In this document: positions 28,629-39,522 of the stretch, piece after piece
How the letters are laid out: the number at the start of each line of letters is the position of its first letter
How positions within the stretch are numbered: position 1 is the first letter of the stretch
Made by a program: the position numbers and the translations under genes
From: Flavobacteriaceae bacterium
GTDB taxonomy: Bacteria > Bacteroidota > Bacteroidia > Flavobacteriales > Flavobacteriaceae
NCBI GenBank assembly: GCA_023264015.1
Contig: JALQTJ010000003.1
Location: 39,704-103,703 of the forward strand
DNA length: 64,000 nucleotides
Direction of reading: 5' to 3'
The notes under the pieces: generated by a model
What the model saw: the letters and a program-made list of their open reading frames with translations, nothing else
Databases searched by the model: none
Told to the model about the DNA's origin: nothing

Positions 28629-30812
28629 ATGAGCCAAGAATTTGAGTCAATCACCTTTGATCTTCCTAAACACAAGAGTAACGTAATCAAGGTTATAGGA
28701 ATCGGTGGTGGAGGCGGAAACGCCATCAACCACATGTACCGCGAAGGAATCAACGGGGTCGATTTTGTGATCTGTAATACAGATCGTCAAGCCCTAGAGA
28801 ACAGTCCGGTTCCGAATAAGATTCAATTGGGTGTTTCGTTGACCGAAGGATTAGGTGCTGGTGCAAATCCTGAGATCGGAGAGCAGGCGGCCTTAGAATC
28901 GCTAGACGAGATCAAAAGTCTACTGGAGACCAATACCAAAATGGTCTTCATTACTGCAGGAATGGGTGGGGGTACCGGTACGGGTGCCGCTCCAATTATC
29001 GCGAGCTTGTCTAAAGACCTTGGAATTCTCACGGTGGGTATAGTGACCATTCCATTCAAATTTGAAGGAAACACACGTCACTCTCAAGCGCAAAAGGGTA
29101 TTGATCGATTGAGAGCATGCGTAGACTCACTTATTGTCATCAACAACAATAAACTGAGAGAAATCTACGGAAACCTCGGATTCAAATCGGGCTTCGGAAA
29201 AGCCGACGAGGTATTGGCTACAGCAGCGAAGGGTATAGCTGAAGTGATCACACACCACTACTTGCAAAACATCGACCTTAGAGATGCCAAGACCGTTCTA
29301 TCCAATAGCGGTACTGCGATCATGGGAGCCTCTAGAGAGTCGGGAGAAAATCGTGCCTTCAAGGCCATATCAAACGCCTTAGACAGTCCGCTGCTTAACG
29401 ATAACAAGATCAAAGGGGCCAAAAATGTACTCTTACTGATCGTATCGGGGACCGAAGAAATTACCCTTGATGAAATCGGCGAAATCAACGATTACATCCA
29501 ACAAGAGGCCGGTTACAATGCCGATATCATTATGGGTGTCGGAGAAGACGAATCCCTTGGGAATGAAATCTCTGTTACTGTAATCGCCACCGGATTCGAC
29601 CTCGATCAGCAGGATTATATTGTAAGTCACGAGACTCAACGTATTATCCATACGCTCGATGGTGAGTCAGAAACCAAGCCTGCCTCATTAGGATTCGATA
29701 CCAATCAAGAAATACGCGCTATCGAAGTGACAGAAGAGCCGGTTACCGCTGAAACTCCGAATGAACTGCTACATGAAGAGGTTACGGATACAGAGCAGCG
29801 TATCGTGCATACCCTTGAATTTGATACCGATGAGATTGAAGCGCCTGCACCTATTGCTGCTGCCTCTTCAGAGGAAGAGGTTATTGAGCTTGAATCTAAC
29901 GAAGATGAACACCTAGAAACCGAGCCTGCAATCGAATCTGTTGAGCAAGATTTTGCCTTTGATTTCTCAGGGGATGAGGCTGAGATTTCTCAGGAGGTCG
30001 TTTCAGAAGAAGTGATGCAAGAAGAATTCACTTCAGAAGAATTCACTTCTGTCTCAGCGTCCATTTCTATGGAAGCCTTGCGTGCCATTGAGGTAGATTT
30101 TGAGGCTGTTGAGGTTACTGAAACACTCGACTTCAGCGACGAAGACTTTACTATTATTGACACCACTGAGCTTTTGAGAAACATCGAAGTTGTGGCTGAA
30201 GAGGTACTCGCCGAATCAGATAACGCCTACGGTGATCTGGCCTTCGAATTACCTCTAGTAGTAGATAACCAACCTGATGCAGAAGAACAGGCGACAACTA
30301 TTGTGTTTGATTTGAACGATACGTTTGAAGAAGAGGCTCCGAAAAATGAGGTCGAAGAAGTTCATGAGGTAGCGCCTGTTGCAAAAAAGATCAAAACAAT
30401 CGATGCTTACGAGCTTGATTTTGACGCTGACTTCGAACAAGAAATGACGTTGAAAACAAAAGAAGAGCCGATTCAAGACCCGTTAAGTGCGCCTGCGGCA
30501 GAGAGCCAAGTTACAAGCTCTTCTGAGACGTCATCTAGCCCGTATGAAATGAGTCTGAGTGAAACCCAAGAAATTCTTGCAGCGCGCAAAGAGCAGCGTT
30601 TGAAGGTCTTTAAGGAGTTCAATCACCAGTTCAATGCGAAAACCGCTAAAATTGAGGACTTCGAAAATGTCCCGGCCTACAAACGTGCGGGGGTTTCTTT
30701 CGACGAGATTCCTTCAGATGCTAAAGTATCGCGCACCACACTCGGAGATGACAGCAACGGGAATCCTCAAATTCGTTCCAACAATTCGTTCTTGCACGAC
30801 AACGTAGACTAA
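28629..30812 (+). CDS. ftsZ: cell division protein FtsZ with long acidic C-terminal linker
   Basis: [30 protein letters not shown]-terminus [13 protein letters not shown]. Confidence 0.98.
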
Positions 30813-33163
30813 AAGTCAAACACTAGCCCGATACTCGGGATGAACTGCCCTTCTGTTGGTTCCAATTGAGTGAGTGATAGCGGCTGCAATAAGGTGCCAT
30901 CTGTGTCGCGGCCCAATGCATAATCAGGAGGAGTAGGAATTTGGCTCGAGAGCAGGTTTTGAATTTCAAAGAATAGGTTGAAACTGCTTGACTTGAAATC
31001 CCATTTTTTATCGATCCGAAGGTCTAACTGGTTGAAAGGGTTTAGTTGTGCATCACCCGATCCAATTTGTTGGTAGTCTAAAACGATTTCAGGATAGCGC
31101 CCCAGTGTGGTCGCTTCGTCTACAGGGGCAAAGGGCGTAGACCCACTGAATCTAAAGCGTGAACTGATTTCCCAATTTCTGTTGAGTTTATATCCGCCTG
31201 TAAACGAGCTCAGGTGGCGACTGTCCCATACCGATCTTAGATAGCTTTGATCGTTGAGTCCAGAGAATTGGCTGTAAAAAAAGGTATAAGAGAATATTCC
31301 GTAAAAGCGGTTGGTGAGTTTTTGCTGAAATAAGAGCTCAAGTCCGTAGGCCCGTCCGCGCCCCTCTGTGTTCAAGGCTTCGTTACCCAGCACCTCGAAT
31401 CCAGCGCCCTTATTGGCTAATGAAACCTCATCTACGATAGAAACCGGATAATTCGCATAACGCTTCGAAAAGGCCTCAACTGAAAACAGGGTAGAAGGAG
31501 CAGCGTAATACTGCATGCCTAATACCAAATGATCTGATCTAGTATAGGCACTGTCGGCGTTCACAAAAACACCTCTGTCTTGATAGCCGAGTGCAGTGTA
31601 GGGTAGGATTTTATAATAACGACCCGCACTTGTACTCAATTTTAGTTTTGGATTGATGGCATAGCTCAACGAGGCTCTTGGTGAGAAATTATCCGCAATC
31701 GAGTTGTTGGTGAAACTATCACTATCTAACCTAAAACCTACAGATAACTCGAGTTTATCGTTAAGAGGAGCCGATAAATTGCTAAAAGCTCCATACTTCA
31801 TAAAGTTAATATCTGTGCTGTAAGAGGTATTAAAAGCTGCGATTTGAGTGTTGTTTCGATAGTCAGAATGCTGCAAATTGACTCCACTGAACCAGCGCCA
31901 ATCACCCACATACTTAGTCAGGTGTGCTCTAAACTTCGTCTCGGCTTCTAAGGCATCATTGCGAAACACAATCCCCGTTTCGTTCTCAGGGTCTAGATAT
32001 CGGGTAAATATGTTGTTGAGTCTGTTGTGACTCAACGTCACCTGAAGTACTCCCGGAGTGTCTTTAAATAAATGCTTCCAACTCAATCCTGCCACGTGAG
32101 TGTTTTGATTGATATAAGGGGCCTGCTCTAAACGTGCCTGCTGCTCAGGATCGAATGCATCAGGAGCTTCTACGGTAAAGTCGTCTAGCGCCCCAATTCC
32201 GATTAAACTGAGCGTATTGCGCTCATCAATAGTGTGATCAAGCTTGTATTGATAATCCCAATAATTGGGTCTAAAAGGAAGGCCTATGAGTTCAAAAAGA
32301 AACTGCAGATAGCTTCTGCGGATAGATCCAATAAAGGTGGTTTCAGCTCCAGACTTTCTTGAAATAGGTCCATCAAGGGTAAGTGCGGTTTCACTGGCAC
32401 TTACGCGTACGTTTCGATTCCATTTATCGCGACTTCCTCTGCGCTGATTGAATTGCAATACTCCTGAAAGCGGATTGTCGTATTGCGCGCCGAAGCCCGA
32501 TGCCGACAGGGTAACGCTTTCGATGAATGATACGTTGATTAAACCAACGGGGCCACCCGAGCTTCCTTGGGTGCTGAAGTGGTTGATGTTGGGAATTTCA
32601 ACTCCGTCCAGGTAATACACACTCTCATTTGGAGCACCGCCCCGAATGATGAGATCGTTTCTAAATCCACCTACGGATGGTGAAACCCCTGGGAGGGTTT
32701 GAGCCACTTGAACCACATCGTTGTTTCCTCCGGGATAGGTTGCGAGCTCGACTGCAGAGAGTGTCTGGGTCGAAAGTGGTGTTTCTCGTGGACGTGAGAT
32801 GGTATTTTGAAGGTCAAGGACCACTCCTTCAAGCGCTTCAACACGCTCTACCAAGGTAAAGTTGTAGTTCTGCGTTCCTTTAGACTTTACTAGTATGTTA
32901 TACAAGGTCTGGGTTTCAAATCCAAGTGCAGATGCTGTGAGGTTGTAGGAGCCTGGGGAAACGTCGCTTATGGTGTAATACCCGTCTATATCGGTTTGAG
33001 CTCCAAGGGTGCTATCTTCGATGAATACCGCTACCCCACTAAGCGGATAGCCTAATTCATCGATGACACGTCCTTTAACTTCGGTGGTGTTTTGGGCGTA
33101 CGAGAGTGCACCTAAGAGCAGTAAAAGGAGTCCAAGCCCCTTTTGAAGGGTTTTCTTAATCAT
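30809..33163 (-). CDS. TonB-dependent receptor with carboxypeptidase-like regulatory domain
   Basis: Signal peptide, VKGRVIDELGYPLSGVAVFIED, PGVSPSVGGFRNDLIIRGGAPNESVYYLDGVEIP plug, terminal F. Confidence 0.94.
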   Translation of the reverse strand: MIKKTLQKGLGLLLLLLGALSYAQNTTEVKGRVIDELGYPLSGVAVFIEDSTLGAQTDIDGYYTISDVSPGSYNLTASALGFETQTLYNILVKSKGTQNYNFTLVERVEALEGVVLDLQNTISRPRETPLSTQTLSAVELATYPGGNNDVVQVAQTLPGVSPSVGGFRNDLIIRGGAPNESVYYLDGVEIPNINHFSTQGSSGGPVGLINVSFIESVTLSASGFGAQYDNPLSGVLQFNQRRGSRDKWNRNVRVSASETALTLDGPISRKSGAETTFIGSIRRSYLQFLFELIGLPFRPNYWDYQYKLDHTIDERNTLSLIGIGALDDFTVEAPDAFDPEQQARLEQAPYINQNTHVAGLSWKHLFKDTPGVLQVTLSHNRLNNIFTRYLDPENETGIVFRNDALEAETKFRAHLTKYVGDWRWFSGVNLQHSDYRNNTQIAAFNTSYSTDINFMKYGAFSNLSAPLNDKLELSVGFRLDSDSFTNNSIADNFSPRASLSYAINPKLKLSTSAGRYYKILPYTALGYQDRGVFVNADSAYTRSDHLVLGMQYYAAPSTLFSVEAFSKRYANYPVSIVDEVSLANKGAGFEVLGNEALNTEGRGRAYGLELLFQQKLTNRFYGIFSYTFFYSQFSGLNDQSYLRSVWDSRHLSSFTGGYKLNRNWEISSRFRFSGSTPFAPVDEATTLGRYPEIVLDYQQIGSGDAQLNPFNQLDLRIDKKWDFKSSSFNLFFEIQNLLSSQIPTPPDYALGRDTDGTLLQPLSLTQLEPTEGQFIPSIGLVFDF

Positions 33164-33178
33164 AGCCTCACAAAGGTA

Positions 33179-33220
33179 CGGATTAGTCCAACGCCTTCGG
33201 CCTTGGCCTGATCCTCTGGC
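33179..33220. repeat. 42-bp hairpin repeat, copy 1
   Basis: CGGATTAGTCC-AACGCC-TTC-GGCCTT-GGCCTGATCCTCTGGC; outer stem GGATTAG/CTGATCC. Confidence 0.8.
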
Positions 33221-33247
33221 TGTTGTACCCTCAATCCAAATTTTGTT

Positions 33248-33289
33248 CGGATTAGTCCGATACTTTCAGTATCGACCTGATCCTCTGGC
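33248..33289. repeat. 42-bp hairpin repeat, copy 2
   Basis: CGGATTAGTCC-GATACT-TTC-AGTATC-GACCTGATCCTCTGGC; same flanks, different but paired inner stem. Confidence 0.8.
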
Positions 33290-33303
33290 GCTCCGTAGTC
33301 TAA

Positions 33304-33425
33304 ATCAAGAAAACGCAGCTGCTAACGCAGCCTTCGTTCTTTTGCCCGCGTTCCTTTTGCAAGCGAGCTTTCCAAGAACCGCGGACAAAAAAACGGGCAC
33401 CTTTTGGCGCCCGCGTTTTCTTGAT
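33304..33425. repeat. 122-bp element bounded by 13-bp perfect inverted repeats
   Basis: ATCAAGAAAACGC (33304-33316) and GCGTTTTCTTGAT (33413-33425). Confidence 0.65.
33386..33412 (-). terminator. intrinsic terminator of tRNA-Arg transcript
   Basis: On minus strand GGGCGCC-AAAA-GGTGCCC followed by GTTTTTTTG. Confidence 0.75.
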
Positions 33426-33432
33426 CCTTAAG

Positions 33433-33506
33433 TGACCGCGGGAGGATTCGAACCCCCAACCCTCAGAGCCGAAATCTGATATTCTATCCAGTTGAACTAC
33501 GCGGCC
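33433..33506 (-). tRNA. tRNA-Arg (anticodon TCG)
   Basis: Minus-strand cloverleaf: acceptor GGCCGCG/CGCGGTC, anticodon stem TCAGA-TTTCGGC-TCTGA, T arm GGGGGTTCGAATCCTCC; CCA not encoded. Confidence 0.93.
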
Positions 33507-39191: not shown

Positions 39192-39461
39192 TTATTTACG
39201 AATACCTAATTCTTTGATTAAAGAACGGTATTTTTCAATATCGTTATTCTTGAGGTAATCGAGTAAACTTCTGCGCTTACCTACTAGTTTTACTAACGAA
39301 CGCTCTGTGTTAAAATCCTTGTGATTTTTCTTTAAGTGCTCTGTTAAGTAATTAATGCGGTAGGTGAAAAGAGCAATCTGCCCTTCTGTTGAACCGGTGT
39401 TTTTTTCGGTTCCACCGTACTGTTTGAAGATTTCAGCCTTCTTTTCTTTACTTAAATACAT
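39192..39461 (-). CDS. rpsO: 30S ribosomal protein S15
   Basis: MYLSKEKKAEIFKQYGGTEKNTGSTEGQIALFTYRINYLTEHLKKNHKDFNTERSLVKLVGKRRSLLDYL. Confidence 0.98.
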   Translation of the reverse strand: MYLSKEKKAEIFKQYGGTEKNTGSTEGQIALFTYRINYLTEHLKKNHKDFNTERSLVKLVGKRRSLLDYLKNNDIEKYRSLIKELGIRK

Positions 39462-39491
39462 TCCAATATTGTGTTAATGATTTTTATGTAT

Positions 39492-39510
39492 CTCATTGAC
39501 TATCAATGAG
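39492..39510 (-). promoter_or_regulatory. rpsO leader stem-loop near the predicted transcript 5' end
   Basis: CTCATTGA-CTA-TCAATGAG, just downstream of minus-strand TATCTTTG (39515-39522). Confidence 0.6.
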
Positions 39511-39514
39511 GGCG

Positions 39515-39522
39515 CAAAGATA
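39515..39522 (-). promoter_or_regulatory. -7 element of rpsO promoter (TATCTTTG on minus strand)
   Basis: Exact TAnnTTTG; no clear TTG at -33. Confidence 0.5.

Follow-up and report, generated by a model that had tools for sequence, protein, structure and literature searches.

Covarying hairpins beside a flavobacterial tRNA-Arg gene as the outer end of a probable tRNA-linked repeat

Two similar hairpins lie between a tRNA-Arg(TCG) gene and the gene for a TonB-dependent receptor (assigned with Pfam; 30809–33163, − strand) in a Flavobacteriaceae genome of 1.57 Mb, raising the question of what kind of element they belong to and why the two sides of their stems change together. Unless a locus is named, coordinates refer to the window, by which we mean the whole stretch of 64,000 nucleotides that was analyzed (from contig JALQTJ010000003.1, assembly GCA_023264015.1). 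The original prediction for this locus described an identical outer stem and a covarying inner stem, and both sequence and folding confirm the description. Hairpin copy 1, the distal duplicate (33180–33214, + strand), consists of the outer stem GGATTAG/CTGATCC around the inner stem CCAACGCC-TTC-GGCCTTGG; copy 2 (33249–33283, + strand), which adjoins a conserved box, has the same outer stem around CGATACT-TTC-AGTATCG. The two stem-loops are spaced 69 bp apart, have CGGATTAGTCC and CCTGATCCTCTGGC in common and, when folded as + strand RNA, reach −18.5 and −17.3 kcal/mol (z −3.1 and −3.9). All three of the compensatory double substitutions that had been counted between the inner stems (A-T to G-C, G-C to A-T and C-G to T-A) are correct, and we add a fourth changed pair, which is a C.C mismatch in one copy and T-A in the other.

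Sister loci within the genus have the same tRNA-Arg(TCG) neighbor and carry 1 to 3 hairpins at a spacing of ~70–80 bp. We assembled a covariation set from the 2 window hairpins and 8 hairpins of four sister species (two from G009, three from G012, two from G006 and one from G011). The 7 pairs of the outer stem are invariant across this set, pairing holds in 91.9% of cells and both sides have changed in 14 cells; neither these 14 double-sided changes nor the covariation score was matched by any of 500 shuffles. The covariation in sister species and the retention of the hairpin in 33 element copies support the proposal, already made in the original prediction, that the structure has been kept by selection. 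That proposal had been made to depend on further copies in the genome or conservation in relatives. The window-type hairpin occurs twice in the whole genome, both times in the window; the wider element described below is found at 3 other loci of the same genome (at tRNA-Val, tRNA-Leu and a former tRNA-Arg(ACG)), and the locus is conserved in relatives, which leaves the proposal standing.

The hairpins had been seen correctly, but they are only the distal end of something larger. By aligning loci on the sequence beside hairpin 2, we found a box, CTCCGTAGTCTAAAT, that belongs to a unit with a fixed order of parts. From the distal end, these are the variable hairpin; the box (in the window CTCCGTAGTCTAAATCAAGAAAA, 33291–33313, + strand, identical in 5 orthologous loci and inside a 32-nt invariant stretch); a terminator-like hairpin, GCTGC-TAAC-GCAGC, followed by a T-rich tract (33318–33343, + strand, the same feature being present in 30 of 33 copies); a central palindrome flanked by the opposed terminators (33344–33386); and, on the opposite strand, the tRNA-Arg terminator GGGCGCC-AAAA-GGTGCCC (33387–33412, with its T-run on the − strand) and the tRNA trailer CTTAAGGATCAAGAAAACGC (33412–33431, − strand), the inverted-repeat partner of the box arm. 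Next to the trailer stands the host gene of the element, tRNA-Arg with anticodon TCG (33432–33506, − strand). The outer arms of the unit form an inverted repeat, the two arms of a locus matching one another. In other words, the hairpin pair is the outer end of a non-coding element of ~150–180 bp located 3′ of tRNA-Arg(TCG). An RNAalifold pairing of GGATTA with the box, obtained from the first element alignment, was set aside because both of its sides are invariant and covariation is absent. When the window was searched with Rfam, whose families include Bacteroidetes sRNAs, only the tRNA and an S15 leader were returned at the gathering threshold (the latter being the S15-Flavobacteria ribosomal-protein leader, RF03161, at 39459–39522, − strand), and a sub-threshold scan gave nothing on the hairpins. 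This leader and the gene content point to Flavobacteriaceae as the family of the genome.

On its other side, the element borders the TonB-receptor gene, which is transcribed away from tRNA-Arg. Between hairpin 1 and the start codon of this gene, the − strand reads TACCTTTG (33171–33178), which is retained in G009 and G012 and fits TAnnTTTG, the Bacteroidetes −7 motif; the hairpin may thus overlap the promoter of the receptor gene. A role linked to this gene was rejected, because other copies of the element have other neighbors while the tRNA stays constant.

The relation to the tRNA extends to its sequence. In several genomes (G001, G004, G007, G010, G116 and others), the 3′ end of the neighboring tRNA is copied exactly, and the hairpin starts within this copy. 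The exact run shared with the local tRNA has a mean length of 10.9 nt in 33 copies, compared with 5.8 nt when tRNAs are permuted (0/5000 permutations as high), and 12 complete units have direct repeats of 17–41 bp at a spacing of 158–183 bp (97 bp in one). In 13 tRNA contexts, the copied end starts in the T-loop, 17 nt from the encoded tRNA end; in 2 further contexts, it starts at 14 nt. Moreover, the 3′ arm of the hairpin complements the copied T-stem and varies in step with it, as in GTAGGATT..TCCT (tRNA-Val, G011), GCTGGATT..TCCA (tRNA-Val, G000) and CGGAGT..CTCC (tRNA-Ala). An apparent older tRNA terminator lies beyond the distal repeat in the loci examined (L243, L245, L249 and L252). Units also amplify in tandem, with 2 in the window and 3 each in G012, at the TCT locus of G006 and in G314. 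In the window copy, the exact run to the tRNA 3′ end is 5 nt long, and the GGATT of hairpin 2 is the remnant of the tRNA-end copy; at the same tRNA, the orthologs in G001, G007 and G010 do carry the 3′-end repeat. As the window copy is without a long direct repeat, its predicted assignment as a tRNA-linked repeat (TLR) rests on orthology and not on its own sequence.

Using the box as a query within the genus, we found the unit 3′ of three tRNA-Arg genes (TCG, ACG and TCT), together with a few unrelated one-mismatch matches within other genes. A model of the unit has matches with E < 1e-4 in 10 of 12 genus genomes, including copies beside tRNA-Val(TAC) and tRNA-Leu(GAG), and in other genera of the family, where its strong matches adjoin tRNA-Arg genes in at least 16 genera of Flavobacteriaceae. 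A pattern scan of the family returned box matches in 48 of 399 genomes, many of the 3-mismatch matches being coding background; of the matches with 2 mismatches or fewer for which the surroundings were inspected, nearly all are beside tRNA-Arg or in related arrays. In the rest of the order outside the family, counts of box matches were at control level. Within an alignment of 25 copies of the box, CCGTAGTCTA is near-invariant, and the conservation of the box exceeds that of the surrounding sequence. A unit of like build with a different box, CCCTTATGTAAAT, is located beside tRNA-Ala(GGC) in G271. Exact-pattern scans of IMG/VR and searches of phages and plasmids yielded no copy of the element, with blastn matches confined to the tRNA part, and the literature, searched for the box sequence and for palindromes at flavobacterial tRNAs, gave nothing relevant. 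A scan of contigs with GGATTAGTCC-N8-30-CTGATCC gave 117 loci, about half of them one repeated Prochlorococcus sequence and the others unrelated short matches, and was discarded as containing no element.

The window genome carries a unit copy where tRNA-Arg(ACG) formerly stood (L202:3317, G000:C78); the tRNA itself is absent from the assembly and unrelated genes lie beyond the break. In G004 (L208:1971-2190, C10), tRNA-Arg(TCT) and its unit are inverted with respect to the neighboring genes and tRNA-Pro/Ser, relative to G006 and G012. Longer arrays near tRNA-Arg(ACG) (L287, L288 and L290) are built of hairpins CAGGATTCTTTGC..GCAAAGTTCCTGACAAAGCTCC, and the loop of some of these encloses a second palindrome.

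The original prediction held that no feature in the window explains the hairpins; the neighboring tRNA-Arg does, because the element is, very probably, a tRNA-linked repeat. Our best overall explanation, to which we give a probability of roughly 0.6, is that the element is a TLR-type unit and the footprint of an insertion at the tRNA T-loop, of which the window holds a decayed copy; for the insertion itself, taken separately, we consider the odds about even. Many tyrosine integrases that target tRNAs use the T-loop as their attachment point, and an element that enters a tRNA attachment site leaves the tRNA intact, with direct repeats of local sequence, a displaced terminator and a boundary fixed in the T-loop. 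Each unit copy would accordingly mark a site-specific insertion at the T-loop: the incoming unit would have supplied the tRNA with another 3′ end and terminator, and the original end, pushed outward, would have survived as the direct repeat. The junction would be the hairpin, whose inner stem took the place of the T-loop and evolves freely. For the window copy, this would mean that the direct repeat decayed to GGATT, that the hairpin was duplicated and that selection holds its structure. Since the unit carries no genes, and hence no integrase, the enzyme would need to be supplied in trans. Against this reading stand the lack of an integrase in the unit, the run of only 5 nt in the window copy and the absence of element copies from the phage, plasmid and IMG/VR searches. 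Repeat and tRNA could also be kept alike by replication slippage, or by gene conversion between the element and the tRNA.

Recombinase genes or fragments occur at some of the loci, none tied to the unit: G006 has a resolvase as well as a split tyrosine integrase, and G224 has a recombinase fragment. An integrase-like N-terminus noted by eye beside the tRNA-Leu copy of G000 was recognized by neither Pfam nor PHROGs. In G224 (L267, C13), two unit copies with identical hairpin and box lie 12.8 kb apart in the same orientation next to tRNA-Arg(TCT), and the stretch that they bound, possibly an island, opens with a serine-recombinase fragment. In G314, five 355-bp tandem units stand 3′ of tRNA-Arg(TCT) (L268:9925-11732), each with an ORF for a GIY-YIG endonuclease (87 aa, PF01541, E = 1.2e-15) and a tRNA copy that lacks the 5′ acceptor strand and has an altered anticodon loop; judged by its sequence, this array looks like a tRNA-targeting homing-endonuclease element. 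An origin of the units from it was considered and dropped, as no link to the units was found.

A serious rival to insertion, though one that we think improbable, is that the unit encodes a small RNA or serves as a processing module, in the manner of rrA, rrB and rrF of Escherichia coli, with the hairpin selected as RNA and the box as its functional single-stranded part. The RNA could arise by read-through of the tRNA terminator and processing at the tRNA-end copy, or by transcription of the opposite strand as hairpin, box and terminator. The covarying hairpin and a box better conserved than its surroundings are as such an RNA would have them, and E. coli provides a precedent between two terminators (PMC8144298). 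The + strand hairpin and T-run recur in 30 of 33 copies (ΔG −7.2, versus −2.9 when shuffled), and the + strand folds better than the − strand in 32 of 33; this preference, however, comes mostly from one recurrent T.G position, and + strand folding is therefore weak evidence of strand. The promoter motif TAnnTTTG, moreover, is absent from the 95 nt upstream in all 33 copies (1.5 expected), and an RNA gene alone leaves the direct repeats of each local tRNA unexplained. The same opposed terminators with opposed T-runs would also suit a unit that only terminates transcription in both directions, protecting tRNA genes against convergent transcripts, and that spread among tRNA loci by homologous recombination, with hairpin and box as passengers. 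We regard this as distinctly unlikely: an invariant box and a distal covarying hairpin are superfluous for a terminator, and the neighboring gene in the window is transcribed away from the tRNA.

The original prediction had also offered REP-like palindromes, a structured RNA or a mobile hairpin; the latter two retain their plausibility. Imperfect tandem hairpins with conserved ends do recall REP palindromes, which a Y1 (RAYT) transposase mobilizes, or integron-like attC sites, but we give these very little credence. The hairpins are not dispersed, the copies sit at tRNA genes, and the proposed search for a REP-associated transposase (PF01797, Y1_Tnp) gave 0 matches in the genome, the control search in E. 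coli being positive; the attC box pair RYYYAAC/GTTRRRY is found in 0 of 25 hairpins.

The flavobacterial unit has its closest counterpart in the TLRs of E. coli (Egan and Landy 1978, Rudd 1999), of which K-12 has 22 in ten loci, with 18–19 bp that repeat exactly the end of the stable-RNA gene upstream, on its 3′ side; known since 1978, they lack an accepted origin or general function, only the 3 rRNA-operon members having a known function (PMC8144298). At E. coli tyrT/tyrV, we find 178-bp repeats (3.1 copies). Here too the copy of the tRNA end has its boundary at that T-loop nucleotide, and the other arm, GGGGAAGGAT, is complementary to it; the 181-bp repeats of serX and the single 133-bp unit of argQ have the same design, and tyrT and serX share the box GATGAGAAGC. 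E. coli TLRs (tyrT with rttR, serX, argQ) and flavobacterial units are thus alike in being non-coding, tandem and 3′ of a tRNA, in size (~133–181 versus 158–183 bp), in the tRNA 3′-end copy with its T-loop start and the arm complementing the copied T-stem, and in a box common to different tRNA loci. Both lie directly downstream of a stable-RNA gene (Arg in the window; Arg, Val and Leu elsewhere), and the flavobacterial tandem counts given above fall within the 1–5 copies per locus of TLRs. A long identity to the tRNA 3′ end, 18–19 bp in E. coli TLRs, is found in the orthologous copies of G001, G007 and G010 and in the 12 complete units of the family, but not in the window copy, which, unlike E. 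coli TLRs, has no long tRNA-end repeat. Architecture alone is held in common: the boxes differ (GATGAGAAGC versus CTCCGTAGTCTAAAT, the flavobacterial type being absent from E. coli tyrT), there is no overall sequence similarity, and we noted the convergent + strand terminator and palindromic layout in Flavobacteriaceae only. On our best reading of these sequences, the flavobacterial units would be a new, box-bearing TLR family that carries this kind of element into Bacteroidota.

Units of TLR architecture in a second phylum provide a comparative data set for insertion, amplification and RNA function, with several tRNA types, a fixed T-loop boundary, local-tRNA repeats, a box and covarying hairpins; it holds many independent copies, and the origin of TLRs therefore becomes testable. 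Tentatively, TLRs might be a cross-phylum class of tiny gene-less mobile elements, with a strand-specific hairpin and a conserved box for a helper recombinase, that insert at one T-loop nucleotide and replace the tRNA 3′ end and terminator, the flavobacterial and enterobacterial units being two branches with different boxes.

Among other known systems, REP palindromes resemble the window hairpins in their imperfect hairpin with a conserved foot, whereas the latter are not dispersed, are tied to tRNA genes and occur in a genome without a Y1 transposase. The rrA, rrB and rrF RNAs resemble the unit in their position, downstream of a stable-RNA gene with a terminator on either side, and in repeating the 3′ end of that gene at their own end; they are transcribed, processed and bound by Hfq and CsrA (PMC8144298), whereas the flavobacterial units are known here from sequence. 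Finally, integrative elements at tRNA attachment sites (islands and IMEs) have the same T-loop boundary and the same tRNA 3′-end direct repeats, which are present in the family and decayed in the window copy; what sets the flavobacterial units apart from them is that the stretch between the repeats is gene-free and shorter than 200 bp.
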